Source: Nitratireductor indicus C115
Lineage (GTDB): Bacteria; Pseudomonadota; Alphaproteobacteria; Rhizobiales; Rhizobiaceae
Assembly (NCBI RefSeq): GCF_000300515.1
Contig: NZ_AMSI01000001.1
Location: 434,001 to 498,000, forward strand
Direction of reading: 5' to 3'
Length of the DNA stretch: 64,000 nucleotides
In this document: positions 7,918 to 37,513 of the stretch, piece after piece
How positions within the stretch are numbered: position 1 is the first letter of the stretch
Layout: each line of letters starts with the position of its first letter
Position numbers and translations under genes: made by a program
Notes under the pieces: generated by a model
Seen by the model: the letters and a program-made list of their open reading frames with translations, nothing else
Database searches by the model: none
What the model was told of the DNA's origin: nothing

Positions 7918-7923
7918 CGCGGG

Positions 7924-11578: not shown

Positions 11579-11695
11579 TGATCTCAAGTCGTCAAGGCGT
11601 CTTGGAATACGGGAACGGCTTGCCCGCGAGAACCGTTTCGCGGCGACATCAAGCCGGTTTCCGTTTCAAGACCGTGTATCTGAACGAGCTTGAAT

Positions 11696-12145: not shown

Positions 12146-12154
12146 GAGAGACCC

Positions 12155-13648: not shown

Positions 13649-13678
13649 AACTGTCTTTCTGTTTTTAATGAGGATGAG

Positions 13679-17926: not shown

Positions 17927-19330
17927 ATGATCGTGGCGATGAAAGCTTCCCGCAATGCTTCGGCATTGCTTGCGGAATGGGCAAGCAATGTGCGCACATC
18001 CGATATCCCCGACAAGGTCAGGGCCGTTGCACGCACCTGTGTGACGGACACCATCGGGGTCGCCATGGCGGGAACTGCTTCGCCGGTTTCCTCCCTGGCG
18101 CGACAGGTCGCGCTGGAGAATGCGGGCCCCGGCTGGGCCGATGTTCTGGGGGCGGGAACGAAATGTTCGGCATCGGCGGCAGCGTTCTGCAATGGCGTTG
18201 CCGCCCATGCGCTCGATTTCGACGACAATTGCTATGCTGGCTTCGTCCATGGCTCCGCCATTATCGTTCCCGCAGCGCTTGCCGTCGCCCAGGAGCGGGA
18301 TTTGACGGGGGCTGACCTCGTCACGGCCATCGTTGTCGGTGCGGAATGCGAATATGCGGTGGGCGCGGCTGCCGGGGTCGATCTTTACGAAAAAGGGTGG
18401 TGGACGACTGGCCTGCTTGGCCCCATAGGCGCAGGTGTCGCTGTCGGGCGGCTCCTTGGGCTGGATGCAGAGGCGATGCAGTCCTGTATCGGTTTTGCGG
18501 TTGCCGGTGCCGGCGGCACGAAAGCCTGTTTCGGAACGGATGCGAAAGCCCTGATGGCCGGGGCGGCGAGCGAAGCGGGCGTGAAGTGGGCACTTCTCGC
18601 TTCCCGCGGCGCGAATGGTCCGGTCGATGCATTTTCGCATGTGGCGGGGTTTGCCAACCTCTTCAACAATTCGATCTTCAACGTCGAGGAAGTTGCCCGG
18701 CTGGGTACCGACTGGCGCCTTGTCGAGCCGGGCATCGACATCAAGAAATACCCGGTATGCCTGTCCTCCCACGCCGCGATCAACGTTGTTTCCGGCATTG
18801 TGAGGCGGGAGGGCATTGCCGCTGCCGATATTCAGGAAATCGTCTGCGACGTGCCGCCCGTCGTCGTGGCCAATCTCATCTATGTTTCTCCGGAAACGGT
18901 GAGGGAAGCGCAATTCAGCATGGAGTTCGCAGTGGCTGCGGCCGCGTGTTTCGGCGAACTCGGTCTCGACCAGCTAAAGCCGGAAATACTGCACAGCGAA
19001 GAGGTTCGGGCGCTGATGGCGCGCGTCCGTATGCTCAGCGGGCCCGACTGGGACCTGCCGCGCCGTATCGCTGCTCCTGAAGGAGCCTCGATCCTGCTGA
19101 CGCTGAAGGACGGACGCCGGTTTTCAGGCTTCTGTTCGCATGCCCCCGGAACGGCGGCGAACCCTCTGCCTGCCGAAGAGATCGAGACAAAATTCCTGGG
19201 CTGCACGCAAACCGTCCTGGGCGCCCGTCCCGCCCGCGATCTCTTGCAGGCGCTCAATCTTCTCGATGCGGATGTACCGGTTCGCGATCTTTTAAAACCC
19301 GTTTTCCCGGGAGCACAGAAATGCGGCTGA
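17927..19330 (+). CDS. MmgE/PrpD family protein
   Basis: The 467-aa protein spans the MmgE/PrpD fold (2-methylcitrate dehydratase, cis-aconitate decarboxylase, iminodisuccinate epimerase). Visible landmarks are the alpha-helical start, AHALDFDDNCYAG, the Ala-rich ALMAGAASEAGVKWA, and KYPVCLSSHAAINVV. It lies inside an amino-acid ABC transporter operon next to RidA, which fits an imino- or amino-dicarboxylate substrate better than methylcitrate. A second, divergent paralogue is at 52913. The reaction cannot be fixed from sequence. The start could also be ATG 17939. Confidence 0.85.
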   Translation: MIVAMKASRNASALLAEWASNVRTSDIPDKVRAVARTCVTDTIGVAMAGTASPVSSLARQVALENAGPGWADVLGAGTKCSASAAAFCNGVAAHALDFDDNCYAGFVHGSAIIVPAALAVAQERDLTGADLVTAIVVGAECEYAVGAAAGVDLYEKGWWTTGLLGPIGAGVAVGRLLGLDAEAMQSCIGFAVAGAGGTKACFGTDAKALMAGAASEAGVKWALLASRGANGPVDAFSHVAGFANLFNNSIFNVEEVARLGTDWRLVEPGIDIKKYPVCLSSHAAINVVSGIVRREGIAAADIQEIVCDVPPVVVANLIYVSPETVREAQFSMEFAVAAAACFGELGLDQLKPEILHSEEVRALMARVRMLSGPDWDLPRRIAAPEGASILLTLKDGRRFSGFCSHAPGTAANPLPAEEIETKFLGCTQTVLGARPARDLLQALNLLDADVPVRDLLKPVFPGAQKCG

Positions 19331-23809: not shown

Positions 23810-24592
23810 CTATTGATAGCAGAGCTGCAGCCTTTCTGCTGCCGAAAGCAATGAGGGGAGGTGCTGTCGCAGGTCCGAGATTTTCATCCGGGCGCTCGGC
23901 GCCGCTATGGCCAATGCCAGCGCCGGCTTTTGCTCGCCGAGTGAAATCGGGACAGCCATTCCGATCACGCCGTCGAGATATTCTTCATTGTCGAAGGCTA
24001 TGCCGAGAGCCGACACCCGGGAGAGCTCCGCCCGCAACTCATCGCGGTCGATGATCGTGTTGTCGGTGAATTTCTGCAGGGCAAGGGTATCGATGTATTT
24101 GTCCTGCTGCTTTGACTGCAACTGGCTCAGGAGCACTTTGCCGATGGCGGAACAGTGCAAGGGAACCTGGCTTCCCGCCTCCAGTCGAAGCGACAAGGGC
24201 CATGTCGCTTCGACACGGTCGACATACATCGCCCGGCCATTCGCGATGATGCCGACATTGCAGGTTTCCTTTGTTTCCTCCGCAAGCTGAAGCAGGATAT
24301 CGTGCCGGGGGCCGCGATGCGCGGCGTTGATGATGACCGACAGCGCCATGTCCAGAAGCTCGTCGCCCTCGATCAGGTGAGAGCGTTTGGGCTCCCGCTT
24401 GAGCATGCCGAGCTTGATCAGATTGCTGATTATTCGGTTGGCGGTCGGACGCGGCAGGGAAAGTGCCTCCGCGATCTGGGCAACGGATGGCGAGAAGTAA
24501 GGATCCCGCACAACGAGCCTCATTACCTCCAGGGATTTTTGAAGCGGACCAGTGGCGTCCTTGTTTTCCTGGCTGCGGCTGGTCTTCTTCAT
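23810..24592 (-). CDS. IclR-family transcriptional regulator
   Basis: About 260 aa, with a winged helix (PSVAQIAEALSLPRPTANRIISNLIKLG) and the IclR effector domain (CNVGIIANGRAMYVDRVEA, PLHCSAIGKVLLSQL, AIAAPSARM). The frame opens further upstream, but residues before MKKTSRSQ are low-quality, so start 24592 is chosen. It is divergent from the TRAP/E1/E2/Xsc operon. A palindrome placed between the -35 and -10 boxes of that operon is its likely operator, suggesting repression lifted by a pathway metabolite. Confidence 0.88.
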   Translation of the reverse strand: MKKTSRSQENKDATGPLQKSLEVMRLVVRDPYFSPSVAQIAEALSLPRPTANRIISNLIKLGMLKREPKRSHLIEGDELLDMALSVIINAAHRGPRHDILLQLAEETKETCNVGIIANGRAMYVDRVEATWPLSLRLEAGSQVPLHCSAIGKVLLSQLQSKQQDKYIDTLALQKFTDNTIIDRDELRAELSRVSALGIAFDNEEYLDGVIGMAVPISLGEQKPALALAIAAPSARMKISDLRQHLPSLLSAAERLQLCYQ

Positions 24593-24824
24593 GGGCGGGT
24601 CACGTCTCCGGATGCTGAATCGGCTCATTTTTTGATTGCATATAGAGGATATTTCGATCCGGGCCAATAATACCTTGTGCGCTTCCGCGGCGAGCGTTCT
24701 CGCTTGCGTGTCTCGCTTAAGCCCGGGTGAAGGCACTTGATCCCCTGCTTTCGCAACAATTGAAATGCATGCGAGGCGCCTCCGCCGCTTCCGCAACCGA
24801 TAGAGAAACTCTCTCACAAGTTGA

Positions 24825-24973: not shown

Positions 24974-25486
24974 ATGAAGCATCTCTCGCGCTTTCTACGC
25001 AATGGCGAACGCTGGGCCATGCTGTGGCTGTATGCCTATGTCGTTCTCGTTATCGTCATCGAGGTTATCCGCCGCTTCGCCTTTGGATACTCGTCCCTGT
25101 GGGGAGAGGAGGCGGCCCGTTATGCCTTTGTCTATCTGGTGTGGATCGGGGCGGCCGTTGGTGTCCGCAACCGCTCCCACATACGCTTCTCAGCAGTCCT
25201 CGACATGCTGCCGCCCAGGCCTGCGGCGGCGGTCAGCGCGGTCGGCAATGTTGCGATCATCATCTTCGCCTGCTTCGCGGTCTACTGGTCTCTGGAACCG
25301 ATCGCGACGTCATTGAAATTCGGTTCGGTCACCGAGGGTTTGCGGCTGTCGCGCGCCTGGTTCCTCGTGGCTGTGCCTTTCGGTTTCTCGCTCGTCCTCC
25401 TGCACGCGTTCCAGGCCCTGGCGCAGGACGTTTCCGATTTCTGGCACCGGCGCGTGCCCGAAACCGGCGAAAAGCTCTTTGACTGA
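24974..25486 (+). CDS. TRAP transporter small permease (DctQ)
   Basis: 170 aa with four membrane segments. It has the DctQ landmarks EVIRRFAFGYSSLWGEEAARYAFVYLVWIGAAVGVR and a HIRF segment, followed by RAWFLVAVPFGF. GGGAGGGG lies just before the start. First gene of the operon; dctM follows after 14 bases, while the binding protein gene is displaced to 31570. Confidence 0.9.
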   Translation: MKHLSRFLRNGERWAMLWLYAYVVLVIVIEVIRRFAFGYSSLWGEEAARYAFVYLVWIGAAVGVRNRSHIRFSAVLDMLPPRPAAAVSAVGNVAIIIFACFAVYWSLEPIATSLKFGSVTEGLRLSRAWFLVAVPFGFSLVLLHAFQALAQDVSDFWHRRVPETGEKLFD

Positions 25487-25500
25487 GGGGGAGGCAAACG

Positions 25501-26808
25501 ATGTTGTATCAATCTTATGACGCCGGTATCGCGATCGGGTCGGACGTTCTGCTTTCGCTCGCTCTTCTGGCCGTGCTTTTCCTGCTTGCGGTGCCGGTGT
25601 GGATTGCGCTTGGCATATCCGCGCTCGTCATGCTGTGGTCGACAGGCGTTCTGCCTCTGTCCCTTTTGGGCGAGAGCCTGTTCGGGGGCGTCAATCATTA
25701 CGCACTGATCGCCATACCGCTTTATCTGCTCACCGGCGATGCGCTGGTGCGATCCGGCCTGTCCAAGCAACTGCTTGACGTTGCTGAGGCAACGATGGGG
25801 TCGCTGCGCTCGGGAATGGGGACGTCGACCGTTTTGGGGTGCGGCTTCTTTTCCTGCATTTCCGGTTCGGATGCCGCCGGTTGCGCTGCCGTCGGCCGCA
25901 TGACCTATTCCCGGCTCGTGGAGAAGGGGTATCCGCCAAATTATGCATCGGCGCTGGTCGCAGCCGGCGCCTGCACGGGGATTCTCATCCCGCCATCCAT
26001 CGCCTACATCATCATCGGCATGATCCTCGGCGTGTCGGCTGCCAGCCTGTTCGTTGCCGCCATCGTGCCGGGCGTTCTGGTGCTGACAGCGATCATGGTC
26101 ACGAATGTGGTCGTGAACCGGGTCTGCGGATATGAAAAGAGCGGTCAGTCGTTCTCCTTCCGCCGGTGGCTGGAAGCGGTCTGGGAGGCAAAATATGCCC
26201 TCTCCATTCCGTTGATCATCTTGGGTGGCATCTATTCGGGCATATTCACGCCCACGGAAGCCGCTGCGGTGGCGGTCATGGTGACCTTGCTGATCGGCTT
26301 CTACAAGAAGACGCTCACCTTCGCCGATATTCCGGACATGCTGTGGAGTTCGGCAAAGGTGAATGGCATCATCGTGCCGATCATCGCCGTTGCCCTGCCG
26401 CTCGCGCAGGCCCTGACGCTGGTGCATGTGCCCCAGAGCTTTGTGGGGATGATCACCTCTCTCACCGACGACCCGGTCTACATCGTCCTGCTGATGCTGG
26501 CTGTGCTGCTGGTGGCCGGTTGCTTCATGGAGGCCACCCCCAATATCGTGATCCTTGCCCCCATCATGTATCCGCTGGGCCAGGAAGTAGGGATGCATGA
26601 GATTCAGTTCTGCATCTTCATGATCACGGCGCTGGGCGTCGGTTTCATCACGCCGCCGCTGGGCCTCAACCTGTTCGTGATCTCGAGCATCACGGGTGGG
26701 TCGATCTTCTCCATCGCAGCGCGCTCAATTCCGTTCGTGATTGTGATGATCGGGGTTGTGCTGGCGATCGCATTCTTTCCCTCTCTTTCCACCTGGGCGT
26801 TCCAATGA
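25501..26808 (+). CDS. TRAP transporter large permease (DctM)
   Basis: 435 aa with 12 or so membrane segments and DctM signatures FAIPLYLLTG-like AIPLYLLTGDAL, SCISGSDAAGCAAVG, LIPPSIAYIIIG and PTEAAAVAV. It is the sodium-coupled translocation subunit for the DctP/DctQ system of this operon. Its stop overlaps the SDR start by four bases (ATGA), so transport and catabolism are translationally coupled. Confidence 0.93.
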   Translation: MLYQSYDAGIAIGSDVLLSLALLAVLFLLAVPVWIALGISALVMLWSTGVLPLSLLGESLFGGVNHYALIAIPLYLLTGDALVRSGLSKQLLDVAEATMGSLRSGMGTSTVLGCGFFSCISGSDAAGCAAVGRMTYSRLVEKGYPPNYASALVAAGACTGILIPPSIAYIIIGMILGVSAASLFVAAIVPGVLVLTAIMVTNVVVNRVCGYEKSGQSFSFRRWLEAVWEAKYALSIPLIILGGIYSGIFTPTEAAAVAVMVTLLIGFYKKTLTFADIPDMLWSSAKVNGIIVPIIAVALPLAQALTLVHVPQSFVGMITSLTDDPVYIVLLMLAVLLVAGCFMEATPNIVILAPIMYPLGQEVGMHEIQFCIFMITALGVGFITPPLGLNLFVISSITGGSIFSIAARSIPFVIVMIGVVLAIAFFPSLSTWAFQ

Positions 26809-27608
26809 GCGGGGCCTCTTCCATGCAGCCGCAACCGGCGTCATATCTTTCCGGGCTCTTCTCCCTTTCGGGACGTGTTGCCCTGGTAACGGGCGGAAAC
26901 ACCGGATTGGGCGCGCAAATGGCCGAAGCACTTGCGGGCGCCGGTGCAGAGGTCGTTCTGGTCGCGCGCCGCGCCGATGCCCTCAGGGAAACGAGTGCGC
27001 GTATCCAGCGCATGGGCGGGCGGGCTCACACCTTGCCGGTCGATCTTCTGGGTGAGGCCGCCGTCGAAGAGGTCGCGCGAGGTGTCGAAGCGAAGGGCTG
27101 CAAGGTCGACATCATCGTCAATGCGGCGGGCATCAACATTCGAAGGGATGCCGAGGCCGTGACGCAGGAAGACTGGGATCGCGTATTGCGTCTCAATCTC
27201 GGGGTCCCCTTCTTCCTTGCCCAGCATTTCGCTCCGGCCATGTCGGCGTGCGGCTGGGGACGGATCATAAACATGGCCTCGCTCCAGTCTGTCCGGGCAT
27301 TTCCGCAGAGCGTGCCCTATGGCGCGTCAAAAGGGGGGATCGTTCAGCTGACGCGTGCCATGGCTGAGGCGTGGTCCGGACGCGGAGTATGTTGCAACGC
27401 CATCGCTCCCGGTCTCTTCCCGACCGAGCTCACGGCCCCGCTTTACAGCGATGCCGCGACGCTTTCCCAGATGGCTGCCAGGACCTGCTGCGGTCGGAAC
27501 GGGGAGCTTGAAGACATCGCAGGGCTCACGGTCTTTCTGGCCTCCGACGCCAGTCGATTCGTGACAGGACAAACGATCTTCCTCGATGGGGGGCTCACGG
27601 CCAAATGA
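26805..27608 (+). CDS. SDR-family oxidoreductase
   Basis: Classical short-chain dehydrogenase/reductase of 267 aa. It has TGGNTGLG (cofactor loop), NAAG, catalytic Ser159 (NMASLQS) and Tyr172-X3-Lys176 (YGASK), and ends LDGGLTAK. It resembles gluconate 5-dehydrogenase/KduD-type enzymes that oxidise secondary alcohols of polyols or sugar acids. Both ends overlap neighbours by four bases (dctM and E1), so it is a core pathway enzyme. I infer that it oxidises the imported hydroxy-sulfonate to a ketone that serves as E1 substrate. Confidence 0.88.
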   Translation: MSGASSMQPQPASYLSGLFSLSGRVALVTGGNTGLGAQMAEALAGAGAEVVLVARRADALRETSARIQRMGGRAHTLPVDLLGEAAVEEVARGVEAKGCKVDIIVNAAGINIRRDAEAVTQEDWDRVLRLNLGVPFFLAQHFAPAMSACGWGRIINMASLQSVRAFPQSVPYGASKGGIVQLTRAMAEAWSGRGVCCNAIAPGLFPTELTAPLYSDAATLSQMAARTCCGRNGELEDIAGLTVFLASDASRFVTGQTIFLDGGLTAK

Positions 27609-29866
27609 ACGCTTTCGAAAAATGCCCTTCAGCGACGTTTGAAAAAATTCAGCAACAGGATGGAACCGCTTTGCAATCGAAGAGCCTGAAAAAACGCAGC
27701 ACCGGAACGCCCTGGTGGGAACTGCAGGTCTCCGACGCCGATATGCGGAAGGTCGAGCGAACTGAACTGGTCCGCATGCTTGAGCAATTATTGCTCATCC
27801 GCGAGTTCGAGGAACGGCTTCTGGATTTGAGCACGGCCGGCATTCTGCATGGTCCGGCGCATGCCAGCATCGGGCAGGAAGGCGCAGCGGTTGGCGCCAT
27901 GTCTGCGTTGGGGTCCACCGACAAGATCAACGGCACGCACCGCATGCACCATCAGTTTCTTGCAAAGGCGCTCAATCATGCAGCGCCGAAGGGATATTCC
28001 CCCCTGGAAACGCCGTTTCCCGAAGAGCTTGTCGATGTGCTTTTCAAGACTTATTCCGAGATTCTCGGCCTTTCGACGGGATATTGCGGCGGTCGTGGGG
28101 GGTCGATGCATTTGCGGCTGCCCGAGGCGGGTGTGCTTGGCTCCAACGCCATTGTGGGCGGCAACCTTCCGCATGCGGTTGGCTATGCGTTTGCCGACAA
28201 GCAACTTGGCCGCAAGGACATTTCGGTTGCGTTCTTCGGCGATGGCGCCATGCAGAACGGCGCCACCTATGAAGCCATGAATCTTGCCGCGCTCTATCGC
28301 ACGCCCACCGTATTCTTCGTCGAAAACAATCTCTATGCGGTTTCCACGCATGTCAGCGAGCAGACCCGCGAATATCGGCTGGCAGCGCGCGGACAAGGCC
28401 TCGGAATCCCATCCATCGAATTCGATGGAATGGACGTCATCGCGGCGCGGCGGGCGATGGAGCTTGCACGCCAGATCATCGACGATGAAGGCGGTCCCGT
28501 CCTACTCGAAGCGAAGACCTATAGATATCTCCACCAATCGGGCGCCCTGAAGGGAAGCGCGTTCGGATACCGCGACAAGGAGGAGGAAGAGGCGTGGGGT
28601 CTGCGCGATCCGGCAACAGCCTTTCCGGCGCAACTGGAGAAGCTCGGCATCATTGAGGCTGGCGCCGCCGAAACCCTGAAGGAACGGGTTGCCGAAGCCG
28701 TCAGGAATGTCCTGGAGAGGCTCGTCGAAAACTATGGCGATGAGCAGCGCCAGAAAATCCGCGCATCGCTCTGGCCTGATCCCTCTCGCGTGGAAGAAGG
28801 TATTCGCGGCGATCTGAAGGAGCTCGCCGGACAGAAGCATCGCGAAGTCGAGGACATCGAGGAAAAAGACCGCATCGAGGCGAAATTCATCGATGTGATT
28901 TCGCAGACCATGCTGCGCAACATGGAGAAGTTCGAAACCCTTTTTGTTCTGGGAGAAGACGTGCACCGTCTGCGCGGCGGCACCGCGGGCGCCACACGGG
29001 GGATTGCGGAGAGATTTCCCGACCGTCTTGTCGGCACCCCGATCAGCGAGAACGGCTTCACCGGTCTTGCGCTGGGCGCGGCATTGAACGGGATGCGTCC
29101 GGTTGTCGAGATCATGTATCCCGATTTCGCCCTGGTGGCGGCCGATCAGCTTTTCAATCAGGTCTCGAAAGTGCGCCATATGTTTGGCGGCGACTTCGCG
29201 GTTCCGGTTGTGGTGCGCAGCCGTGTTTCCCAGGGAACCGGCTATGGCTCGCAGCACTCGATGGACGCCAGCGGCCTGTTCGCTCTCTATCCGGGCTGGC
29301 GCATCGTCGCGCCTTCCACCCCGCATGATTATATCGGTCTGATGAATGCAGCGGTCGCCTGTGACGATCCGGTTCTTGTGGTCGAATACAGCGACCTCTT
29401 CCAGGAGCGCGGCATGATCCACGCCACCGACTGGGACTATGTGGTTCCCTTCGGAAAGGCGCGGATCGCGCGGCCCGGCAATAGCTGCACCATCCTCACC
29501 TACGGGCCGATGGTCTCCACCTGCTGCGCGGTTTCTGAACGGGGAGGTTTCGACGCGGAGGTCATCGACCTGAGAACCATCGATCCGCTCGGTGTCGATT
29601 GGGAGACTATTGCGGAGAGCGTGCGCCGCACCAATGCCCTGATGATCGTCGAACGTACGACACGCGGCACGTCCATCGGTTCCCGCATGGTCAGCGACGC
29701 GCAGTCGCGCCTCTTCGACTGGCTCGACCACGAGATCATTCATGTCTCCGGCACGGAGTCTTCGGCGGTTGTCTCGAAAGTTCTCGAAGAGGCGGCGTTT
29801 GCCGGTGCCGAAGCGGTTGAAGAGGCACTGAAGCAGCTTGTCCGCCGGCAGCAGATGGCGGCCTGA
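27605..29866 (+). CDS. Fused E1 alpha-beta of a 2-oxoacid/acetoin dehydrogenase-type complex
   Basis: The 753-aa chain contains an E1 alpha domain (about 55-370) and an E1 beta domain (about 425-745), normally two polypeptides. The ThDP motif is GDG (212-214) followed by NN (241-242), the standard 29-residue spacing. The beta part shows PISENGFTGLALGAALNGMRP and SQGTGYGSQHSMDASG. Such E1 enzymes add ThDP to a carbonyl, cleave the adjacent C-C bond and pass the acyl group to a lipoyl E2; one is at 33047. Relatives act on pyruvate, branched-chain oxo acids or acetoin. Because the operon feeds Xsc, I infer cleavage of a sulfonated alpha-hydroxyketone. No E3 gene is nearby. Confidence 0.85.
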   Translation: MNAFEKCPSATFEKIQQQDGTALQSKSLKKRSTGTPWWELQVSDADMRKVERTELVRMLEQLLLIREFEERLLDLSTAGILHGPAHASIGQEGAAVGAMSALGSTDKINGTHRMHHQFLAKALNHAAPKGYSPLETPFPEELVDVLFKTYSEILGLSTGYCGGRGGSMHLRLPEAGVLGSNAIVGGNLPHAVGYAFADKQLGRKDISVAFFGDGAMQNGATYEAMNLAALYRTPTVFFVENNLYAVSTHVSEQTREYRLAARGQGLGIPSIEFDGMDVIAARRAMELARQIIDDEGGPVLLEAKTYRYLHQSGALKGSAFGYRDKEEEEAWGLRDPATAFPAQLEKLGIIEAGAAETLKERVAEAVRNVLERLVENYGDEQRQKIRASLWPDPSRVEEGIRGDLKELAGQKHREVEDIEEKDRIEAKFIDVISQTMLRNMEKFETLFVLGEDVHRLRGGTAGATRGIAERFPDRLVGTPISENGFTGLALGAALNGMRPVVEIMYPDFALVAADQLFNQVSKVRHMFGGDFAVPVVVRSRVSQGTGYGSQHSMDASGLFALYPGWRIVAPSTPHDYIGLMNAAVACDDPVLVVEYSDLFQERGMIHATDWDYVVPFGKARIARPGNSCTILTYGPMVSTCCAVSERGGFDAEVIDLRTIDPLGVDWETIAESVRRTNALMIVERTTRGTSIGSRMVSDAQSRLFDWLDHEIIHVSGTESSAVVSKVLEEAAFAGAEAVEEALKQLVRRQQMAA

Positions 29867-29891
29867 GCGAGAAAGGGAGGAGATTGCGAGG

Positions 29892-30341
29892 ATGCTGAAG
29901 GATGAGCTTCTCGATGTGCATCACACAGCGGTTTGCGTGACGGATTTCGAACGCGCGCGGGACTTCTATGTCGATTTCCTCGGCTTTGAACTCGAGGGCG
30001 AGGCGGACAATCGATCCGAATCCGCCCTTGGTGACGTGGTTGGCCTCAAGGGAGCAACAATCCGCTGGGCCATGCTGCGCCGTGGGTCTCACTGCGTCGA
30101 GCTCTTCAAATACTACCAGCCGGAGGGAAACCGGACGCCGCGCGAACAATGCGACCTGGGCTACACCCACATGGCGATGCGGGTGCGCGATGTCGATGCG
30201 GTTTTCGAGCAGGCTGTCGCTGCCGGATATGAACCTGTTTCCACGCCGCGCGTGCTTCGGGGAGGAAAGACGAAGGTTTTCTATCTGCGTGAGCCGGAAG
30301 GCGCGATCACCGAGTTCATCCAGTTCAACGAACTCGGCTGA
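29892..30341 (+). CDS. VOC (glyoxalase/bleomycin) family protein
   Basis: 149 aa with two beta-alpha-beta-beta-beta modules. Likely metal ligands appear at the canonical places: His in DVHHTAVCV, Glu in CVELFKY, His in YTHMAMRV and Glu in AITEFIQF. VOC members include glyoxalase I, methylmalonyl-CoA epimerase and ring-cleavage dioxygenases. At one module pair and 149 aa it fits an isomerase, epimerase or lyase rather than a dioxygenase. GGGAGGAG precedes ATG 29892. It may epimerise or isomerise the sulfonate intermediate; that is an inference from position only. Confidence 0.8.
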   Translation: MLKDELLDVHHTAVCVTDFERARDFYVDFLGFELEGEADNRSESALGDVVGLKGATIRWAMLRRGSHCVELFKYYQPEGNRTPREQCDLGYTHMAMRVRDVDAVFEQAVAAGYEPVSTPRVLRGGKTKVFYLREPEGAITEFIQFNELG

Positions 30342-30373
30342 CCTGCGCGAGACAAGGGGAAGGAGTGATGGGC

Positions 30374-31282
30374 ATGAAGACGGTGGCATTCATAGGCCTT
30401 GGAACCATGGGCGGACCCATGGCTGCCAGGCTTGCCGCGAACGGTTTCGATGTGCGCGGATATGATCTGGACGATCGCAAGGTCGAAGCGCTTGTCGCCG
30501 CGCATGGAACCGGTTGCACCAGCATTGGCGATGCCTGCCGGGGTGCGGAATGCGTCGTGACCATCTTGCCACGCGATGAGCATGTCCGCTCCGCCATGCT
30601 TGGCGAAGGCGGTGTATTGGAGAACATCGGCCCGGGCGTTCTTGTTCTCGAGATGAGCACCATCTCGCCGTCGACCAGTCTGGAAATCGCCGCCCGGCTT
30701 TCCGAGCGAGGTGTGAGGATGCTGGACGCGCCGGTGGGCAGAACCCCGCAGGATGCCCGCGATGGAAGGCTTCTCGTGATGGCCGGCGGTGCCCCTGATG
30801 ATTTTGCAGCGGCGCACGAGGTGTTCTCAGCCTTTGCCGACAAGATCCTTCATATGGGACCGCAGGGATGCGGCATCCGCATGAAGGTCGCAAACAACTA
30901 CATGTCGATGGTAACCATGGTGCTGACGGCCGAAACCCTTGCTCTTACGGGCAAGGCGGGGATCGACGAAAAGCTCGCGGTCGAGGTGTTGCAGAACACC
31001 GTGGCGGGCAAAGGTCAGATCAATACGAATTTTCCCAGGAAAGTGCTCGCCGGCGACCTGACGCCCGATTTCCCTTTGGCGCTTGGCCACAAGGACATAT
31101 CGCTCGGCGTGCGCCTCGGCGAAGAGTTGAAGGTGCCGCTGTTTCTTGGCGCATCGGCCCGTGAACTTTTCGGGCTGGCGCCCGCGATGGGGCTCGCGGA
31201 GCTGGATTGCACCGCAATGCTTCTGATTCTCGAAAAATTGTCGGGCATGGACGCCGTCAGAGAGGGAGGGTTGAAATCATGA
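30374..31282 (+). CDS. Beta-hydroxyacid dehydrogenase resembling sulfolactaldehyde reductase YihU
   Basis: NAD(P)-dependent enzyme of the 3-hydroxyisobutyrate dehydrogenase superfamily, 302 aa. It has the Rossmann start FIGLGTMGGPMA and catalytic Lys171. The usual substrate loop SGG is replaced by GRT (122-124), and NNYMS lies at 174-178. From memory, E. coli YihU has PVGRT, KLINNYMS, AAGKG and KVLSGDLSP at the same positions, and its Arg123, Asn174 and Asn175 hold the sulfonate group. The match (VAGKG, KVLAGDLTP) extends over the C-terminal half. It probably handles a sulfonated aldehyde/alcohol pair. Start 30374 follows AGGAG. Confidence 0.88.
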   Translation: MKTVAFIGLGTMGGPMAARLAANGFDVRGYDLDDRKVEALVAAHGTGCTSIGDACRGAECVVTILPRDEHVRSAMLGEGGVLENIGPGVLVLEMSTISPSTSLEIAARLSERGVRMLDAPVGRTPQDARDGRLLVMAGGAPDDFAAAHEVFSAFADKILHMGPQGCGIRMKVANNYMSMVTMVLTAETLALTGKAGIDEKLAVEVLQNTVAGKGQINTNFPRKVLAGDLTPDFPLALGHKDISLGVRLGEELKVPLFLGASARELFGLAPAMGLAELDCTAMLLILEKLSGMDAVREGGLKS

Positions 31283-31494
31283 CAAAAGAAAAAATTATTG
31301 CCGCGAGAAAATATTCTGGCGCCGGATCCTTGTTATTTTTCGCGGTATTTTTCGTCAATGTGATATCTGCCGGATTTTTGAAGAATTATATACCAAGTTA
31401 TTATTTATTGTCTTCTTTTGGAGAATTCATCCTGTTTGGAATGGCGTCTCTTTTTCTTGTAGTTTTCTTGATCATACACAACGAATTTTCCTGA
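31279..31494 (+). CDS. Small AT-rich membrane protein, unknown
   Basis: 71 aa with two predicted membrane helices (about 15-33 and 46-68) separated by KNYIPSYYLLSSFGE, and a short basic N-terminus (MTKEKIIAARK). The start ATG overlaps the stop of the dehydrogenase gene (ATGA) and GAGGGAGGG precedes it, so translation looks real and coupled. Base composition is strikingly AT-rich compared with neighbours of about 60 percent GC. I do not recognise a family; it is too short for DctQ. It lies directly before the TRAP binding protein gene. Confidence 0.65.
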   Translation: MTKEKIIAARKYSGAGSLLFFAVFFVNVISAGFLKNYIPSYYLLSSFGEFILFGMASLFLVVFLIIHNEFS

Positions 31495-31569
31495 GGCGTC
31501 ACCCGGTGCGCGCGGTTTGGGAGGAAAACAATCGCTGCGCGGGCTCAACATCAACGAATGGAGGAGAAC

Positions 31570-32733
31570 ATGAAACAACACGACAATGAGACGGGTATCG
31601 CGACCACTCTGCAGTCTCGGCGCGACTTCATGCGATTGGTCCGCAATGCGGGCTTTACGGTGGCTGCTGTGGCTGCCGGCAGCGGCGCGCTGGGCATACC
31701 GGAGGCAGAAGCCCAAACCCGGGCGGAAGAATCCGAGCGCGAATCCGCGGCTCAGTACAAGATGACGATTGCGACGGCTTACAGGCTGGGCACGGATCGC
31801 AGTTTCCCTGTGATGCAATTGCAGCTCAAGGAGAACATCCAGAACGCCACCCGCGGCAAAGTCTATGTCAGGCTGGTGCCCGACGGCGCACTGGGTGCCG
31901 GTGCCGAACTCGCGGAAAAGGTCCAGAACGGAACCATTCAGGCAGCGCAGCACTCGATTGCGAATTTCGCACCATTCGCCAAGACGGTCGATGTTATCAA
32001 TCTGCCCTATTGGTGTGGCGACAACCAGCAATTCGTCAATCTCGTAACCTCCGACATCTGGAAGCAGGAGGTGGATACGCGTGTTGAGAAGAACGGCTTC
32101 AAGGTGCTTCTCTATCAACCCGTCGATCCCCGAACGGTCTCCCTGCGTCGCGGTCTGCGCGATGAACCCGTGCGTCGCCCGGATGATCTCAAGGGGCTCA
32201 AGTTCCGTGTGCCGGGATCGGCCATTCTCGCGCAGCTCTACAGGTTGCTGGGTGCAAACCCCACCCCCATTGCCTGGGGCGAAACTCCTTCCGCATTGCG
32301 TCAGGGCGTTGCCGATGCGCTCGATCCCAATGTGATGGGGCTGAACCTCTTCGGGTTCAAGGACATCGTTTCGCGCGTGACCTTCGTTCGCAGTGTTCCA
32401 GACGGTGGCGTCTATTCGTGCAACCTTGCCTGGCTCGAAACACTTGATAACGACACGCGGGAAGCTGTGGAATGGGGAGCTCACATCACCTTCCTGCAGA
32501 ACCTGTCGCAGGTGCCTGCTTCCCGGGAATACTCGATGGCGGAGATGGCTGCTGCCGGCGTCAAATTCTATTCGCCAGCAGAGGACGAGATGGCCGAATG
32601 GCGCGAACGGGCCGGTGCCCAGCGGTCGGAATGGGATGATATCAAGAAGGATCTCGTCGGCTCGCTGGATGTGTTCGACCGTTTGAAGGAAGCCGCAGAT
32701 ACGCCTTCGGCATTTTACGTCCACGACGCCTAG
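31570..32733 (+). CDS. TRAP transporter substrate-binding protein (DctP), Tat-exported
   Basis: 387-aa periplasmic binding protein. It carries a twin-arginine signal (SRRDFMRLV, then a hydrophobic stretch and AEAQ), unusual but known for DctP proteins with a folded or cofactor-bound export form. The ligand arginine is in the conserved KFRVP (Arg213), which in DctP proteins salt-bridges the acid group of the substrate. Start 31570 is chosen over 31558 because GGAGGAG lies 3 bases before it. Together with DctQM at the operon start it should import the sulfonate substrate. Confidence 0.9.
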   Translation: MKQHDNETGIATTLQSRRDFMRLVRNAGFTVAAVAAGSGALGIPEAEAQTRAEESERESAAQYKMTIATAYRLGTDRSFPVMQLQLKENIQNATRGKVYVRLVPDGALGAGAELAEKVQNGTIQAAQHSIANFAPFAKTVDVINLPYWCGDNQQFVNLVTSDIWKQEVDTRVEKNGFKVLLYQPVDPRTVSLRRGLRDEPVRRPDDLKGLKFRVPGSAILAQLYRLLGANPTPIAWGETPSALRQGVADALDPNVMGLNLFGFKDIVSRVTFVRSVPDGGVYSCNLAWLETLDNDTREAVEWGAHITFLQNLSQVPASREYSMAEMAAAGVKFYSPAEDEMAEWRERAGAQRSEWDDIKKDLVGSLDVFDRLKEAADTPSAFYVHDA

Positions 32734-32945
32734 GCGGCCTTGGTGTGCGGCGTGGACGGTTCATGCCGCACACTCCAGGGCGCAAGGGCGCTGACTGGCC
32801 CATCCTTCCTGCGGTCGGGGGAGCGATCGGGCAGGGAAATGATGGCTGGCCGCCGATCGAGGCGGCCGACCCCTTTCGGAGAATTACGGCGAGGTTTGCA
32901 TGCGTTGGCTTCAGGGGCGTCGAATTTTGCCTTGAGATAAATTCT

Positions 32946-32982
32946 GATCGTTATTCGATCCATTTTAAATCGAATAACGATC
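32946..32982. promoter_or_regulatory. 14-bp perfect inverted repeat before E2-xsc-pta
   Basis: GATCGTTATTCGAT (32946-32959) is exactly complementary to the sequence at 32969-32982, with a 9-base AT-rich spacer. No T-run follows, so it is an operator candidate rather than a terminator. It shares the heptamer TAACGAT with the palindrome in front of dctQ, hinting that the same IclR protein may bind both. The remainder of the 313-bp gap (32734-33046) holds no credible gene. Confidence 0.6.
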
Positions 32983-33046
32983 TTAAAAGCTGTGCTTGGC
33001 GCAGGTGAGCGGTGAATAAGAGCATGCAGCAAGAGAAAGTGAACTG

Positions 33047-34390
33047 ATGGCAATCGAGATTCTCATGCCCTCTCTCTCCCCCGGAATGGAGGAAGGAAAG
33101 CTTGCGAAGTGGCTTGTCCAAGAGGGCGCGGAGGTGTCGGCCGGCGATATCATCGCGGAGATTGAGACGGATAAGGCCACATTGGAATTTGAGGCGCATC
33201 AGAGCGGCGTTCTCGCGCGGCTGATAGTGCCTGCCGGAACCGACGGCGTTGCCGTGGGAACCCCGCTGGCCGTCATGGCGGGCGATGAGGACGGGGAGAT
33301 GGAGGCAGGGCCCGCCGAAACGCCCGAGCCGCATTCTACCAGCCCGGCAAGACAACCGGCTGCCGTTACGGCCAGTCCCGGAAGGGACAATGCCGCTACT
33401 GCAGAGCAGGCGGCAATGGAAAGCGCAAATGCTCCCCGCATTTTCATGTCGCCCCTTGCACGCCGTCTGGCCCGGGAAGCGGGGCTTGATCCTGCGGGTC
33501 TTTCCGGAACAGGTCCGCGTGGCCGTATCTTGCGCGCCGATGTCGAGGCGGCTTTGACGCCGGACAAACATGCAGATGCGCGCCCTGCTGGTGGCAGCCA
33601 TGCTGCGGATCGGGAGGACACAGGGCCTGTCTCCTCGCCGGCGGACGACGACATGGTGTTGAAGGTCTTCGAGGAGGGCAGCTTCAGGCGTGTGCCGCAC
33701 GATTCCATGCGCAAAACGATCGCGCGGCGCCTTACTCTCGCAAAGACGACGATCCCTCATTTCTATCTGACTGTGAATTGCGAGATCGACACGCTTCTGG
33801 AACTGCGCGGAAGGCTCAATGCGGCTGCTCCGATCAAATCCGCAGCCGAAACCTCGGAGCCAGCCTACAGGATTTCCGTGAACGACATGGTGGTCAAGGC
33901 ACTGGCTTCGGCTCTGGCGGCGGTTCCGAATGCCAATGCATCCTGGACCGAAAGCGAAATGCTGATCCACGAGCACGCCGACATTGCCGTTGCCGTGGCG
34001 CTGGATGGCGGCCTGATAACGCCTGTGGTGCGGCGTGCGGAGCAGAAGGCCATTTCCGTGATCTCGAACGAGATCAGGGAATTGGCCCGCCGCGCACGCA
34101 ACAAGGAACTGCGTCCGGAAGAATATCAGGGTGGAACCACGGCGGTTTCCAATCTGGGCATGTATGGCATCAGCGAATTCAGCGCGATCATCAATCCGCC
34201 TCACGGAACGATCCTCGCCATAGGCGAAGCCGTTCAGAAGCCGGTTGTCAAAAATGGCGCAATCGTCCCGGCGACGATCATGCGCGTGACACTCTCAGCC
34301 GATCATCGCGCGGTGGACGGTGCGCTTGGCGCGCAGCTGCTCGCAGCTTTCAGGAACGGCATCGAAAACCCCTTGAGCCTGCTGGTCTGA
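33047..34390 (+). CDS. Dihydrolipoamide acyltransferase (E2) of the 2-oxoacid/acetoin dehydrogenase type
   Basis: 447 aa. An N-terminal lipoyl domain holds the modified lysine in IETDKATLEF (Lys43). An Ala/Pro-rich linker follows, then a peripheral subunit-binding domain (about 128-166, MSPLARRLAREAG, GTGPRGRILRADV) and the acyltransferase domain, ending with the active-site motif DHRAVDGA (His420, Asp424). It takes the acyl group from the fused E1 at 27605 and gives acyl-CoA. It starts the E2-xsc-pta block, separated from E1 by four genes. A dihydrolipoamide dehydrogenase must come from elsewhere in the genome. Confidence 0.92.
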   Translation: MAIEILMPSLSPGMEEGKLAKWLVQEGAEVSAGDIIAEIETDKATLEFEAHQSGVLARLIVPAGTDGVAVGTPLAVMAGDEDGEMEAGPAETPEPHSTSPARQPAAVTASPGRDNAATAEQAAMESANAPRIFMSPLARRLAREAGLDPAGLSGTGPRGRILRADVEAALTPDKHADARPAGGSHAADREDTGPVSSPADDDMVLKVFEEGSFRRVPHDSMRKTIARRLTLAKTTIPHFYLTVNCEIDTLLELRGRLNAAAPIKSAAETSEPAYRISVNDMVVKALASALAAVPNANASWTESEMLIHEHADIAVAVALDGGLITPVVRRAEQKAISVISNEIRELARRARNKELRPEEYQGGTTAVSNLGMYGISEFSAIINPPHGTILAIGEAVQKPVVKNGAIVPATIMRVTLSADHRAVDGALGAQLLAAFRNGIENPLSLLV

Positions 34391-34435
34391 CATGCCGACC
34401 GGCCGGGCCAAAACCAATAAGCAAGGAGATTCCAC

Positions 34436-36211
34436 ATGAAAATGAACACTGAAGAGGCATTCGTCAAAGTCCTGCAAATGCATGGAATCCGGCAGGCTTT
34501 CGGCATCATCGGTTCTGCGATGATGCCGGTTTCCGATCTGTTTCCCAAGGCAGGCATTACGTTCTGGGATTGCGCGCACGAAACGAACGCGGCGCTGATC
34601 TGCGATGGCTATAGCCGCGCCACGGGCCAGATGGCCATGGCAATCGCTCAGAACGGGCCGGGCGTTACCGGCTTCGTGACGGCCGTCAAGACGGCTTACT
34701 GGAATCATACGCCTATGCTTCTCGTAACGCCTCAGGCTGCCAACAAGACGATTGGGCAGGGCGGCTTTCAGGAAGTCGACCAGATGGCGATGTTCGAGGA
34801 AATGGTCTGCTACCAGGAAGAGGTGCGCGATGCCTCCCGGGTGGCCGAAGTGTTGAACCGCGTCATCGAGAAGGCGTGGCGCGGTTGCGCGCCGGCGCAG
34901 ATCAACGTTCCGCGCGATTTCTGGACGCAGGTGATCGACATCGAACTGCCGCAGATCGTGCGGCTGGAGCGCCCTTCCGGTGGCGCCAGGGCTATTTCTG
35001 AAGCTGCCCGCCTTCTCTCGGACGCGAAGTTTCCAGTCATTCTGAATGGTGCAGGGGTCGTGATCGGCAACGCCATCGAGGATTCCCGGATGCTTGCCGA
35101 AAGGCTGGATGCGCCCGTGTGCTGCGGATATCAGCACAACGACGCCTTCCCGGGCAGTCATCCGCTGTCCGTTGGACCATTGGGGTACAATGGCTCCAAA
35201 GCGGCAATGGAACTGATCGCCAAGGCGGATGTGGTTCTGGCGCTGGGAACGCGTCTCAATCCCTTCTCCACCCTGCCGGGATACGGCATCGACTACTGGC
35301 CGAAGGATGCGAAGATCATTCAGGTCGATATCAATGCCGACCGCATTGGCCTGACCAAGAAGGTCACCGTGGGCATCTGCGGCGATGCCCGGCACGTTGC
35401 GCAACAACTACTCTCCCAATTGGCGTCCCATGCCGGTGACGCCGGCCGCGAGGAGCGGAAGAACCTGATCCATCGGACGAAATCCGCCTGGCTTCAGATG
35501 CTGTCGTCCCTCGATCATGAGGAAGACGATCCTGGCACGGTGTGGAACGAGGAAGCGCGCAGGAGGGACGCGGACCGCATGTCGCCGCGCCAGGCATGGC
35601 GGGCCATCCAGGCGGCACTGCCCGATGATGTCATCATCTCCACCGATATCGGCAACAACTGTGCCATCGGGAACGCCTATCCGTCGTTCGACACATCGCG
35701 CAGCTACCTCGCGCCAGGCATGTTCGGTCCCTGCGGCTATGCATTCCCCTCGATCATCGGCGCCAAGATCGGCTGTCCCGACAAGCCGGTGATCGGGTTC
35801 GCCGGCGATGGGGCTTTTGGAATATCCATGAACGAGATGGGGTCGATCGGGCGTGAGGATTGGCCGGCTATCACCATGGTGATCTTCCGCAACTATCAGT
35901 GGGGGGCGGAGAAGCGGAACACCACGCTCTGGTACGACAATAATTTCGTCGGCACCGAGCTCAATCCAAAACTCAGCTACGCGAAAGTCGCTGAAGGATG
36001 CGGTCTGAAAGGCGTGGTCGCAAAAACGCCGCAGGAACTAACGGAGGCCCTGCACAAGGCCGTGGAGGAACAGGCCAAGGGTATTACGACCTTTATCGAG
36101 GTGATCCTGAATCAGGAACTTGGCGAGCCCTTCCGGCGTGATGCGATGAAAAAGCCGGTCCCCGTCGCCGGCATCGATCCGAACGATATGCGGGATCAGA
36201 TCCCCGCTTAG
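34436..36211 (+). CDS. xsc: Sulfoacetaldehyde acetyltransferase Xsc
   Basis: ThDP enzyme that converts sulfoacetaldehyde and phosphate into acetyl phosphate and sulfite, the desulfonation step of C2-sulfonate catabolism. The 591-aa length and the N-terminus (MKMNTEEAFVKVLQMHGI, FGIIGSAMMPVSDLFPKAG) match Xsc almost word for word as I remember it. The catalytic Glu49 lies in CAHETNAAL, and the ThDP motif is GDG (457-459) with Asn486. AAGGAG precedes the start. pta follows, as in known xsc loci. The stop codon is part of repeat copy B. Confidence 0.96.
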   Translation: MKMNTEEAFVKVLQMHGIRQAFGIIGSAMMPVSDLFPKAGITFWDCAHETNAALICDGYSRATGQMAMAIAQNGPGVTGFVTAVKTAYWNHTPMLLVTPQAANKTIGQGGFQEVDQMAMFEEMVCYQEEVRDASRVAEVLNRVIEKAWRGCAPAQINVPRDFWTQVIDIELPQIVRLERPSGGARAISEAARLLSDAKFPVILNGAGVVIGNAIEDSRMLAERLDAPVCCGYQHNDAFPGSHPLSVGPLGYNGSKAAMELIAKADVVLALGTRLNPFSTLPGYGIDYWPKDAKIIQVDINADRIGLTKKVTVGICGDARHVAQQLLSQLASHAGDAGREERKNLIHRTKSAWLQMLSSLDHEEDDPGTVWNEEARRRDADRMSPRQAWRAIQAALPDDVIISTDIGNNCAIGNAYPSFDTSRSYLAPGMFGPCGYAFPSIIGAKIGCPDKPVIGFAGDGAFGISMNEMGSIGREDWPAITMVIFRNYQWGAEKRNTTLWYDNNFVGTELNPKLSYAKVAEGCGLKGVVAKTPQELTEALHKAVEEQAKGITTFIEVILNQELGEPFRRDAMKKPVPVAGIDPNDMRDQIPA

Positions 36212-36313
36212 AGCATTTTGCAGTCCGGTGGAATCACCTGACGCCCGCATAAATGCAGAAAAACAAGAAGATAGGGCGTGAAAGCGTTTCTGCGAAACGA
36301 TGAAGCGCTCTAG
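36209..36313 (+). repeat. Dispersed ~100-bp palindromic repeat, copy B
   Basis: Begins TAGAGCATTTTGCAG and ends GCGCTCTAG, so its ends are inverted (TAGAGC / GCTCTA). It contains CCGGTG-GAAT-CACCTG and a second hairpin around CGTTTCTGCGAAACG. It overlaps the xsc stop codon and separates xsc from pta. Confidence 0.85.
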
Positions 36314-36327
36314 GCGGGCCGGGTGCG

Positions 36328-36353
36328 GCGGAGGCCTCAAATCGGGCCTCCGC
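36328..36353 (+). terminator. GC-rich hairpin between xsc and pta
   Basis: GCGGAGGCC (36328-36336) pairs perfectly with GGCCTCCGC (36345-36353) across 8 bases. No U-run follows, so termination would be partial at best. With repeat B it may lower pta expression relative to xsc. Confidence 0.5.
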
Positions 36354-36478
36354 TCCCTGCTGGAATCATGCGTAATGTGCAAACTCCGTTTATCCATGTT
36401 CTCGCCACAGCAGACCGTTCATCACTGCAACAAGCCGGGTCTTCAGGCGTGCCGGTTCGAGTGGATGCGGGGACGGGT

Positions 36479-37513
36479 ATGAACGAGCTCGATCGCTTGG
36501 TCGAACGCGCCAGCCGCGATCCGGCGCGCATTGCGCTTGCGGAAGGAGAGGACCGGCGCGTTCTTGAAGCGGCCGTGCGGGCGCAGGCCGACGGCCTTTC
36601 GGCTCCCATCCTCGTGGGCGACGCTGGCAAGATTTCTGCCGGTCTGAAGGACCTTGGAGCAAATGCCGGACGTTTCCGAATAGAAGACCCGAAAGCTTCG
36701 GGGCTCTCGAAACGTTTCATCGACCGCTATCTCGAGCTGCGGCGAATGAAAGGCGCGAGCGAAGCTGATGCACAGGCGGCGATAGCCGACCCATTGGGAT
36801 TTGCCGCCATGCTCGTACGCGAGGGGGAAGCCGATGGCATGATCGGCGGAGCCGTAGCGACCACGGCCCATACCGTAAGAACGGCCCTTCAGATTGTCGG
36901 GCGGGCAGCCGATGCGACGATTGTCTCCAGTTTCTTCCTGATGCTTTTGACAGCCCGGCAACACAGGGAAAAGGGCGCGCTTGTCTTCGCCGATTGCGGG
37001 TTGGTCGTGGAACCGAATGCGGAAGAACTGGCGCAGATCGCCTTGTCCTCGGCGCGTTCGTGCCGTGCGCTCATCGGTGCTGATCCCCGGGTGGCGATGC
37101 TGTCGTTCTCCACGATGGGCAGTGCCATTCACGAACGGGTGGATAAGGTGGTGCGGGCGACGCAGATCGTGCGCCGGGCCGAGCCGCAATTGCTGATCGA
37201 TGGCGAAATGCAGTTCGACACGGCCTTCGAGCCCGTGGTGAACACCATGAAGGCTCCGAATTCCTTGACGCGCGGGCAAGCGAATGTCTTCATTTTCCCG
37301 AATCTCGAAGCAGGAAACATAGGCTACAAGATCGCGCAGAGGATCGGTGGAGCGACGGCGATAGGCCCGGTTCTGCAAGGCTTGGCAAAGCCGTGCAACG
37401 ACCTGTCGCGCGGCTGCAGTGTCAATGACATCTACGCGATGATCGCAGTCACGACGGTTCAATACCGCTCTCTTGTCCAGGGAACCGGGCGCCAAGCGCA
37501 CACTGGCTGCTGA
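36479..37513 (+). CDS. pta: Phosphate acetyltransferase Pta
   Basis: Converts acetyl phosphate to acetyl-CoA, completing the Xsc reaction. The 344-aa protein is the short form consisting only of the PTA/PTB domain: LAEGEDRRVLEAA, MIGGAVATTAHTVRTALQ, ADCGLVVEPNAEELAQIA, MLSFSTMGSA, NVFIFPNLEAGNIGYK. The frame is open upstream to 36323, but family similarity begins at MNELDRLVERA (36479), where the ribosome site is weak. It is separated from xsc by repeat B and a hairpin, so it may have its own promoter. Its 3' end faces the cspA terminator. Confidence 0.93.
   Translation: MNELDRLVERASRDPARIALAEGEDRRVLEAAVRAQADGLSAPILVGDAGKISAGLKDLGANAGRFRIEDPKASGLSKRFIDRYLELRRMKGASEADAQAAIADPLGFAAMLVREGEADGMIGGAVATTAHTVRTALQIVGRAADATIVSSFFLMLLTARQHREKGALVFADCGLVVEPNAEELAQIALSSARSCRALIGADPRVAMLSFSTMGSAIHERVDKVVRATQIVRRAEPQLLIDGEMQFDTAFEPVVNTMKAPNSLTRGQANVFIFPNLEAGNIGYKIAQRIGGATAIGPVLQGLAKPCNDLSRGCSVNDIYAMIAVTTVQYRSLVQGTGRQAHTGC

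Follow-up and report, generated by a model that had tools for sequence, protein, structure and literature searches.

How might a gene cluster that ends in sulfoacetaldehyde acetyltransferase (Xsc) and phosphate acetyltransferase (Pta) obtain its sulfoacetaldehyde? The question is raised by a stretch of 64,000 nucleotides from Nitratireductor indicus C115 (contig NZ_AMSI01000001.1, positions 434,001 to 498,000 of the forward strand; hereafter the window), in which eleven open reading frames (ORFs) lie on the same strand at 24974-37513, with no internal stop in any. An earlier sequence-only reading had described eleven co-directional genes with ATGA-type overlaps and had proposed a sulfonate catabolic operon. 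The ORFs were found intact, our domain calls concur with that description, and our data support a sulfonate operon. We propose, with a probability of about 50% and from sequence comparison, that the cluster is a second, alternative operon for 2,3-dihydroxypropanesulfonate (DHPS), in which a thiamine diphosphate (ThDP)-dependent E1 and its E2 would split 3-sulfolactaldehyde (SLA) to sulfoacetaldehyde and formyl-CoA.

DHPS, a C3 sulfonate, is very probably the operon substrate, as predicted by homology. It was favored because the cluster combines an HpsO-type short-chain dehydrogenase/reductase (SDR), a DHPS-type tripartite ATP-independent periplasmic (TRAP) transporter, an SLA-type YihU-like enzyme and a small ORF before dctP. 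Cleavage of SLA was favored because E1 relatives are accompanied by an AcoC-type E2, the window E1 stands apart from the E1s of pyruvate dehydrogenase (PDH) and aco operons, the genome has no ComE of its own above cut-off (149.2 versus 221.5 bits), and the adjoining Xsc-Pta pair needs sulfoacetaldehyde. The eleven genes are as follows.

24974..25486, plus strand: dctQ, TRAP small permease, DHPS type (Pfam DctQ)
25501..26808, plus strand: dctM, TRAP large permease, DHPS type (TIGR00786 above cut-off)
26805..27608, plus strand: SDR, HpsO-type (R)-DHPS dehydrogenase (structure match 8wwf and residues)
27605..29866, plus strand: fused E1 alpha-beta, ThDP-dependent, proposed to cleave SLA (Pfam E1_dh, Transket_pyr, Transketolase_C)
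29892..30341, plus strand: vicinal oxygen chelate (VOC) protein, glyoxalase-like (Pfam Glyoxalase; the scan used an upstream start)
30368..31282, plus strand: YihU-like SLA reductase / (S)-DHPS dehydrogenase (structure match 6sm7 and motifs)
31279..31494, plus strand: 71-residue membrane protein with two hydrophobic segments (position and segment pattern)
31570..32733, plus strand: dctP, TRAP solute-binding protein, DHPS type (Pfam DctP)
33047..34390, plus strand: E2 with lipoyl, E3-binding and 2-oxoacid_dh domains, PDH type (Pfam; TIGR01349)
34436..36211, plus strand: xsc, sulfoacetaldehyde acetyltransferase (TIGR03457)
36323..37513, plus strand: pta, phosphate acetyltransferase (Pfam PTA_PTB)

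Substrate of the operon

DHPS has been described as an organosulfur compound that is abundant worldwide and serves as a currency linking phytoplankton with bacteria (PMC11131964, available part). The solved structure most similar to the window SDR was 8wwf, the (R)-DHPS dehydrogenase HpsO (E 7.5e-82), which was taken to be the Ruegeria pomeroyi enzyme (RpHpsO) of that paper; the residue numbering agrees. Four RpHpsO residues named there as catalytic or DHPS-binding (Ser145, Gln147, Tyr158 and Lys162) are all retained in the aligned window SDR. According to the same part of the source, Gln147 is not conserved in gluconate dehydrogenase, and a Gln147Ala mutant lost most of its activity.

The window transporter is related to that of a canonical-looking DHPS operon found at a separate site of this genome (L169, C24:2000-21999), with identities of 46% for dctQ, 58% for dctM and 59.6% for dctP. 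L169 comprises TRAP genes, HpsN, HpsO and HpsP homologues (57%, 53-56% and 49% identity, respectively) and a LacI-type regulator. Homologues of dctM were also present in 19 plasmid records, and the three that were opened (57-59% identity) all contained TRAP-hisD(HpsN)-SDR-alcohol dehydrogenase operons, followed by ComDE in two cases and by two UxaA-family genes matching SuyA and SuyB in the third; the DHPS-type label of the window transporter is thus an assignment by homology. The four HpsO residues and the DHPS-type TRAP place the window SDR and transporter with DHPS (hps) operons. SuyA/SuyB homologues were found at another site of the genome (L170, C10:34000-53999). As this genome carries the L169 operon and SuyA/SuyB besides the window cluster, it probably has two DHPS systems.

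The YihU-like protein was most similar to 6sm7, the E. coli 3-sulfolactaldehyde reductase (E 1.5e-60), among solved structures. It retains the motifs PVGRT and NNYMS, in place of which the next best matches carry PVSGG and NNQLL; the arginine of PVGRT presumably binds the sulfonate. Its score lies below the curated cut-off of NF012005 (269 versus 348 bits). In four E1-containing loci (L019, L022, L030 and L033) and in the canonical DHPS TRAP operons L171-L173, dctP is preceded by a small ORF whose two hydrophobic segments follow the pattern of the 71-residue membrane protein.

The sequence-only reading had favored a C4 sulfonate such as 4-deoxy-4-sulfoerythrulose, or a sulfonated acetoin. Both were rejected, as the transporter, the SDR and the YihU-like enzyme are of known C3 (DHPS/SLA) types. 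It had also noted that no known source of sulfoacetaldehyde, ComDE included, is present in the window; SlcD, ComD and ComE indeed had no match there (Tpa, TauXY and the isethionate enzymes were not searched for). HpsN and HpsP likewise had no tblastn match in the window, and both are located at C24 of the same genome.

The E1 component

The window E1 scored below the cut-off of the PDH E1 alpha model TIGR03182 (229.7 versus 393.85 bits) and of three other PDH E1 models. A tree of 84 rows placed it inside a 20-row clade (SH-aLRT 100) together with HpsN-linked E1s, and this clade was apart from the PDH E1 of the same genome and from the E1s of split aco-type operons (SH-aLRT 100). This was a quick tree with SH-aLRT values only, in which L165, L090 and L083 form long branches and from which 16 loci with odd lengths due to simple ORF extension were left out. 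The split, AcoC-linked rows L161-L163, which are not biochemically proven AcoAB, lie across a branch with a support of 100 from the window E1. The aco-type references were restricted to these three plasmid loci (only L161 is annotated) and a paralogue from the window genome (L166), because an NF011457 search of 11 genomes for classical acoABC operons returned E1-linked matches, partial matches and one match above cut-off (L146, on another contig of the L022 genome).

The active-site loop separates the same groups. Both GDG and, in the beta chain, QHS are retained as motifs in the window E1. A long loop (HQ.G..GS.F.YR) was present in 54 of 55 fused-family rows (L036 fits neither pattern), and a short GH loop in all 29 rows outside the family, as GHS.SD in PDH and aco-type sequences and as GHARKD and similar versions in far rows. 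An ordinary PDH or branched-chain identity was rejected for the E1 on account of the sub-cut-off scores, the separate clade and the rebuilt loop, but not for the E2. The sequence-only reading had named identification as an ordinary complex as one observation that would count against it: the E1 is no ordinary 2-oxoacid dehydrogenase E1, but the window E2 is of PDH type.

An E1 at E <=1e-120 was found in 9 of the 201 genomes related to that of the window, and the best apart from the window's own is 55% identical. The window E1 type thus looks sporadic among relatives and may have been acquired, to judge from its distribution.

More distant members of the fused family were found as well. In the same genome (L133, C10:118000-137500), a paralogous fused E1 (51%) forms a group at 7642-14475 with two SDRs and an E2 of PDH type, next to a gene for a sugar-type ABC transporter. 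Members at about 50% identity occur on plasmids (L098-L102, L164) of Agrobacterium, Phaeobacter, Caballeronia, Pseudomonas, Salipiger and Shinella, in clusters with varied sets of SDR, VOC, E2, lpdA, and semialdehyde dehydrogenase or shikimate dehydrogenase genes. These clusters look like systems for oxidative cleavage of other hydroxyketones.

Genes linked to E1 relatives

A scan of species genomes gave 79 distinct loci from the best 80 of 155 E1 relatives. The close set consists of 43 loci (L019-L061) with E1s 56-75% identical to the window E1. Linked to E1 in the stretches examined of these loci were VOC (33), YihU (26), HpsO (16), HpsN (15), HpsP (13) and window-type TRAP (9) homologues; in L040 and L056, where gene calls are partly wrong, neighbors were matched by tblastn. 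All 26 YihU homologues carry PVGRT. In all 33 VOC homologues the H/E/H/E positions are kept, which we take to be comparable with the glyoxalase I metal site.

Of the 29 loci in the window's E1 clade and the lineages closest to it, 26 had a linked YihU, versus 0 of 14 in the next group (four of the 43 loci lie outside the tree and were grouped by identity; the branches of L040 and L041 arise close to the base). The next group (L044-L047, L049, L051-L055, L057, L059-L061) consists nearly entirely of metagenome-assembled genome (MAG) records, many from Rhodospirillales, and has neither YihU nor Hps genes at the thresholds used. Because of this difference in YihU linkage, the next group may have a different substrate.

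Achromobacter accounts for 8 of the HpsN-linked loci, other Burkholderiales for 4 (one genome contributing two), Azospirillum for 1 and unclassified Pseudomonadota for 2; several gene orders are represented. The identity of HpsN was checked in L023, where the top structures were 8v35 (sulfopropanediol 3-dehydrogenase, E 8.5e-216) and 8wwe ((R)-DHPS dehydrogenase). One locus (L058:3156-17468) unites YihU, HpsN, HpsO, HpsP, E1, VOC, an AcoC-type E2, SuyA, SuyB and a SerA-like dehydrogenase in a single cluster.

Co-occurrence with xsc at the genome level is not a proof of a functional link. Thirty genomes, picked from the closest loci (30 of the 43) and including 8 Achromobacter, were searched whole. 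HpsN was found in 25 of these 30 genomes versus 48 of the 201 relatives of the window genome, and xsc in 25 versus 58; 31 of the 201 had both (the 201 include the own genome). Fisher comparisons with the own genome removed (HpsN 25/30 versus 47/200, xsc 25/30 versus 57/200) overstate the case, because the 30 genomes are neither independent of one another nor similar in taxonomy to the 201 relatives. When the comparison was limited to relatives with HpsN, again without the own genome, xsc was present in 25/30 versus 30/47 (Fisher p 0.076). In Achromobacter, xsc occurs in 39 of 43 genomes and the window-type E1 in 11 of 43. We therefore rejected genome-level co-occurrence as a proof and regard it as weak, because xsc is also common in HpsN genomes that lack this E1 (31/48 HpsN genomes among the 201 relatives, own genome counted) and near universal in Achromobacter. 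The E1-xsc association that the sequence-only reading had suggested looking for is thus present at the level of genomes, but carries little weight as evidence, and physical linkage was seen in the window alone. By physical linkage, E1 is strongly tied to DHPS genes.

E2, Xsc and Pta

The E2 of the window differs from that of E1 relatives. It scored above the TIGR01349 (PDH E2) cut-off (478.1 versus 445 bits) and below that of the AcoC model NF011457 (84.1 versus 307 bits), and its top plasmid matches, from Sinorhizobium and Nitratireductor (50-51% identity), are annotated as PDH E2 where annotated. In the close E1 loci, an AcoC-type E2 with an alpha/beta-hydrolase domain was found in 18 of 43, and one with a 2-oxoacid_dh domain (PDH type) in none; the other 25 had no E2 core in the stretch examined. 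The E2 of L030, a locus of Roseovarius nubinhibens ISM, passes NF011457 (357.7 versus 307 bits), while those of L023 and others are below.

The complex might also be a sulfopyruvate dehydrogenase, forming sulfoacetyl-CoA by oxidative decarboxylation. A PDH-like family and an E2 that passes the PDH E2 model would suit such an enzyme. We nevertheless consider it very improbable: the E1 is without the short GHS.SD loop, the E2s of its relatives are of AcoC type, the window has no HpsN or SlcD homologue, and the product is unsuited to Xsc.

Xsc itself is well above the TIGR03457 cut-off (988.5 versus 676.4 bits) and adjoins pta. As called, pta has a GTG start and matches Pfam PTA_PTB from residue 57; the real start may be downstream of the listed GTG. 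A second xsc-pta pair (78% and 50% identical to the window copies) is present in the same genome (L132, C9:174500-194499, xsc at about 8819-10603), near genes for a fused TRAP permease, a GMC-type choline dehydrogenase-like protein and an aldehyde dehydrogenase. Our guess is that this pair serves isethionate use.

Transcription units and neighboring genes

Four-base overlaps join dctM to the SDR gene, the SDR gene to E1, and the YihU-like gene to that of the small membrane protein. Two further features flank or interrupt the cluster.

23810..24817, minus strand: IclR-family regulator, divergent from the operon (Pfam IclR_C and HTH_IclR)
32946..32982, no strand: perfect 14-base inverted repeat with 9 bases between the arms, a candidate operator before E2-xsc-pta (function proposed)

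The genes probably form two units, dctQM-SDR-E1-VOC-YihU-small membrane protein-dctP and E2-xsc-pta, because the dctP-E2 gap measures 313 bases and contains the palindrome, and because the two nearest E1 relatives (L019 and L020) have the dctQ-to-dctP block with no match to E2, window-type xsc or pta in the stretch examined. In L020, xsc matched at 27% a sequence that lies about 2.5 kb downstream and is probably another ThDP enzyme. An exact copy of the 14-base arm was found in one of 170 loci, the window site itself, and an operator common to relatives was rejected. Homologues of the IclR regulator (48-52% identity) are located near E1 in L019, L022, L026, L029, L030, L033, L034, L038 and L039.

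An alternative is that xsc-pta is a neighbor by chance and that the E1 block acts on some hydroxy compound other than a sulfonate. In favor of this are the gap with its palindrome, the limitation of E1-xsc linkage to the window, and the surroundings of the wider E1 family: other transporters lie beside it, and none of the five plasmid loci opened first has an hps, xsc or comDE gene in its annotation (L102 encodes a permease of the TauE/SafE family). The likelihood of this alternative is nevertheless very low, since HpsO, a DHPS-type TRAP and a PVGRT-containing YihU are inside the E1 block, HpsN accompanies E1 in 15 of the 43 loci, and a TauE/SafE-family gene directly follows the block in L030.

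Elsewhere in the window, MmgE/PrpD family genes were found at 17927-19330 and 52913-54280, the latter enclosed by a further TRAP set at 51219-56067 (DctP-domain protein at 51219-52793, DctM at 54778-56067).

Proposed pathway

In the proposed pathway, the TRAP transporter would import DHPS. The HpsO-type SDR would oxidize R-DHPS to SLA, a reaction known for its relative (PMC11131964, available part), and the YihU-like enzyme would convert S-DHPS to SLA, in the reverse direction of its known reaction. For the VOC protein, which is related to glyoxalase and has a metal site, we propose that it epimerizes SLA or interconverts it with its hydroxyketone isomer. ThDP on the fused E1 would then attack the aldehyde carbon of SLA, and a retro-benzoin break of the C1-C2 bond would free sulfoacetaldehyde; the C1 fragment would be oxidized onto the lipoyl arm of E2 and released as formyl-CoA. 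Xsc would convert sulfoacetaldehyde to acetyl phosphate and sulfite, and Pta would form acetyl-CoA. A single E1/E2 step would thus replace the three steps of the Xsc branch that lead from SLA via sulfolactate and sulfopyruvate to sulfoacetaldehyde.

Acetoin dehydrogenase provides the model for such a reaction, as it converts acetoin to acetaldehyde and acetyl-CoA. An acetoin dehydrogenase-like cleavage feeding Xsc had already been put forward in the sequence-only reading. Its C4 substrate is not retained, and the unusual E1 and the AcoC-type E2 of relatives agree with the cleavage, which we likewise only infer. Precedent also comes from 2-hydroxyacyl-CoA lyase, whose ThDP-dependent cleavage yields formyl-CoA and a carbonyl compound (PMC8760513, available part). 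This enzyme differs in belonging to the ThDP decarboxylase superfamily (same source), in using a CoA-ester substrate and in having no lipoyl E2. Tentatively, with slightly less than an even chance, the E1/E2 pair would represent a new class of ThDP/lipoyl complex that converts an alpha-hydroxyaldehyde (SLA) to an aldehyde and formyl-CoA, and the wider family of fused E1s, together with its VOC and SDR partners, would be a general toolkit for hydroxycarbonyl cleavage.

Several observations weigh against SLA cleavage. Among the E1 neighbors scanned in a selection of loci (L019, L022, L023, L026, L029, L030, L033 and L058), none was clearly a gene for the use of formyl-CoA or formate; the SerA-like protein of L058 matched NAD formate dehydrogenase below the cut-off (136.3 versus 329 bits). 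A molybdopterin oxidoreductase in L033, considered as a formate enzyme, was ruled out, as it is NapA. The window E2 is of PDH type, unlike the E2s of E1 relatives. The genome-level co-occurrence with xsc is weak evidence, xsc was linked to E1 nowhere outside the window among the E1 loci examined, and it was not found in 5 of the 30 E1 genomes (G203, G223, G225, G226 and G227; four MAGs and one bin). Other sulfonate fates exist in E1 genomes, with SuyB in 19 of 31 and ComE above cut-off in 4 of 31 (own genome counted); ComDE (81% to Leisingera) is in the same locus as E1 in L034, and SuyAB in L058.

The product of HpsO is also disputed. The products of RpHpsO and RpHpsP were identified as SLA (PMC11131964), but HpsO and HpsP had first been proposed as DHPS-2-dehydrogenases, acting at C2 (PMC11382572; available part of each). 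If HpsO oxidized C2, the complex could cleave the hydroxyketone HOCH2-CO-CH2SO3- to formaldehyde and sulfoacetyl-CoA, and a reductase encoded elsewhere would have to make sulfoacetaldehyde for Xsc. It is this hydroxyketone that most closely resembles acetoin, and in 4 of the 5 plasmid loci opened first the wider-family E1 had SDRs nearby. We consider this route unlikely, given that the operon is without a sulfoacetyl-CoA reductase, that the steadiest E1 partner besides VOC is an SLA-type reductase (26/29 loci), and that SLA was the product identified for the Ruegeria enzymes.

Alternatively, E1/E2 might oxidize SLA without C-C cleavage to sulfolactyl-CoA and on to sulfolactate, perhaps by means of the hydrolase-fold domain of an AcoC-type E2. 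Aldehydes can serve PDH-type E1, the AcoC-type E2 does have an alpha/beta-hydrolase domain, and SuyB is frequent in the E1 genomes. This seems improbable, as the adjoining Xsc would not be fed, the window E2 has a 2-oxoacid_dh domain instead, and HpsN and GabD-2 provide simpler means of making sulfolactate (PMC11131964, available part).

Relation to known systems

Three routes from DHPS to sulfite, all through sulfolactate, are described in the available part of PMC11382572, where, out of 272 HpsN sequences, 93 were assigned to the SuyAB route, 51 to CuyA and 37 to Xsc, apart from organisms with two routes. Like the Xsc branch of that paper (HpsN/HpsO/HpsP, SlcD, ComDE, Xsc), the window has a TRAP transporter, HpsO, the small membrane protein and Xsc-Pta, and its route would also lose C1 of DHPS and yield sulfoacetaldehyde. 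It differs in having E1, VOC, YihU and E2 in place of homologues of HpsN, HpsP, SlcD and ComDE. With acetoin dehydrogenase (AcoA, AcoB, AcoC) it has in common a ThDP E1 and a lipoyl E2, the latter of AcoC type in the 18 related loci, but the window E1 is a single fused chain in a separate clade with another active-site loop, and the window E2 is of PDH type. E. coli YihU is the closest solved relative of the YihU-like enzyme and has the same PVGRT and NNYMS, yet the window protein is below the NCBIfam cut-off and is proposed to work in the oxidative direction.

No link of DHPS or SLA to a ThDP/lipoyl complex was found in the titles and abstract starts of the open-licence PubMed Central papers that the searches listed, the search covering neither subscription papers nor preprints. 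The gene families are already known, and their combination was not found in the open-licence literature searched; the cluster would be a variant form of DHPS/Xsc catabolism whose E1/E2 may catalyze a new class of reaction.

Most likely, the cluster lets the bacterium use DHPS by a shorter route than those described. If true, a route that skips sulfolactate would alter the scoring of DHPS use, both in genomes and in the sea, and SLA would be a new type of substrate for pyruvate dehydrogenase-like complexes.

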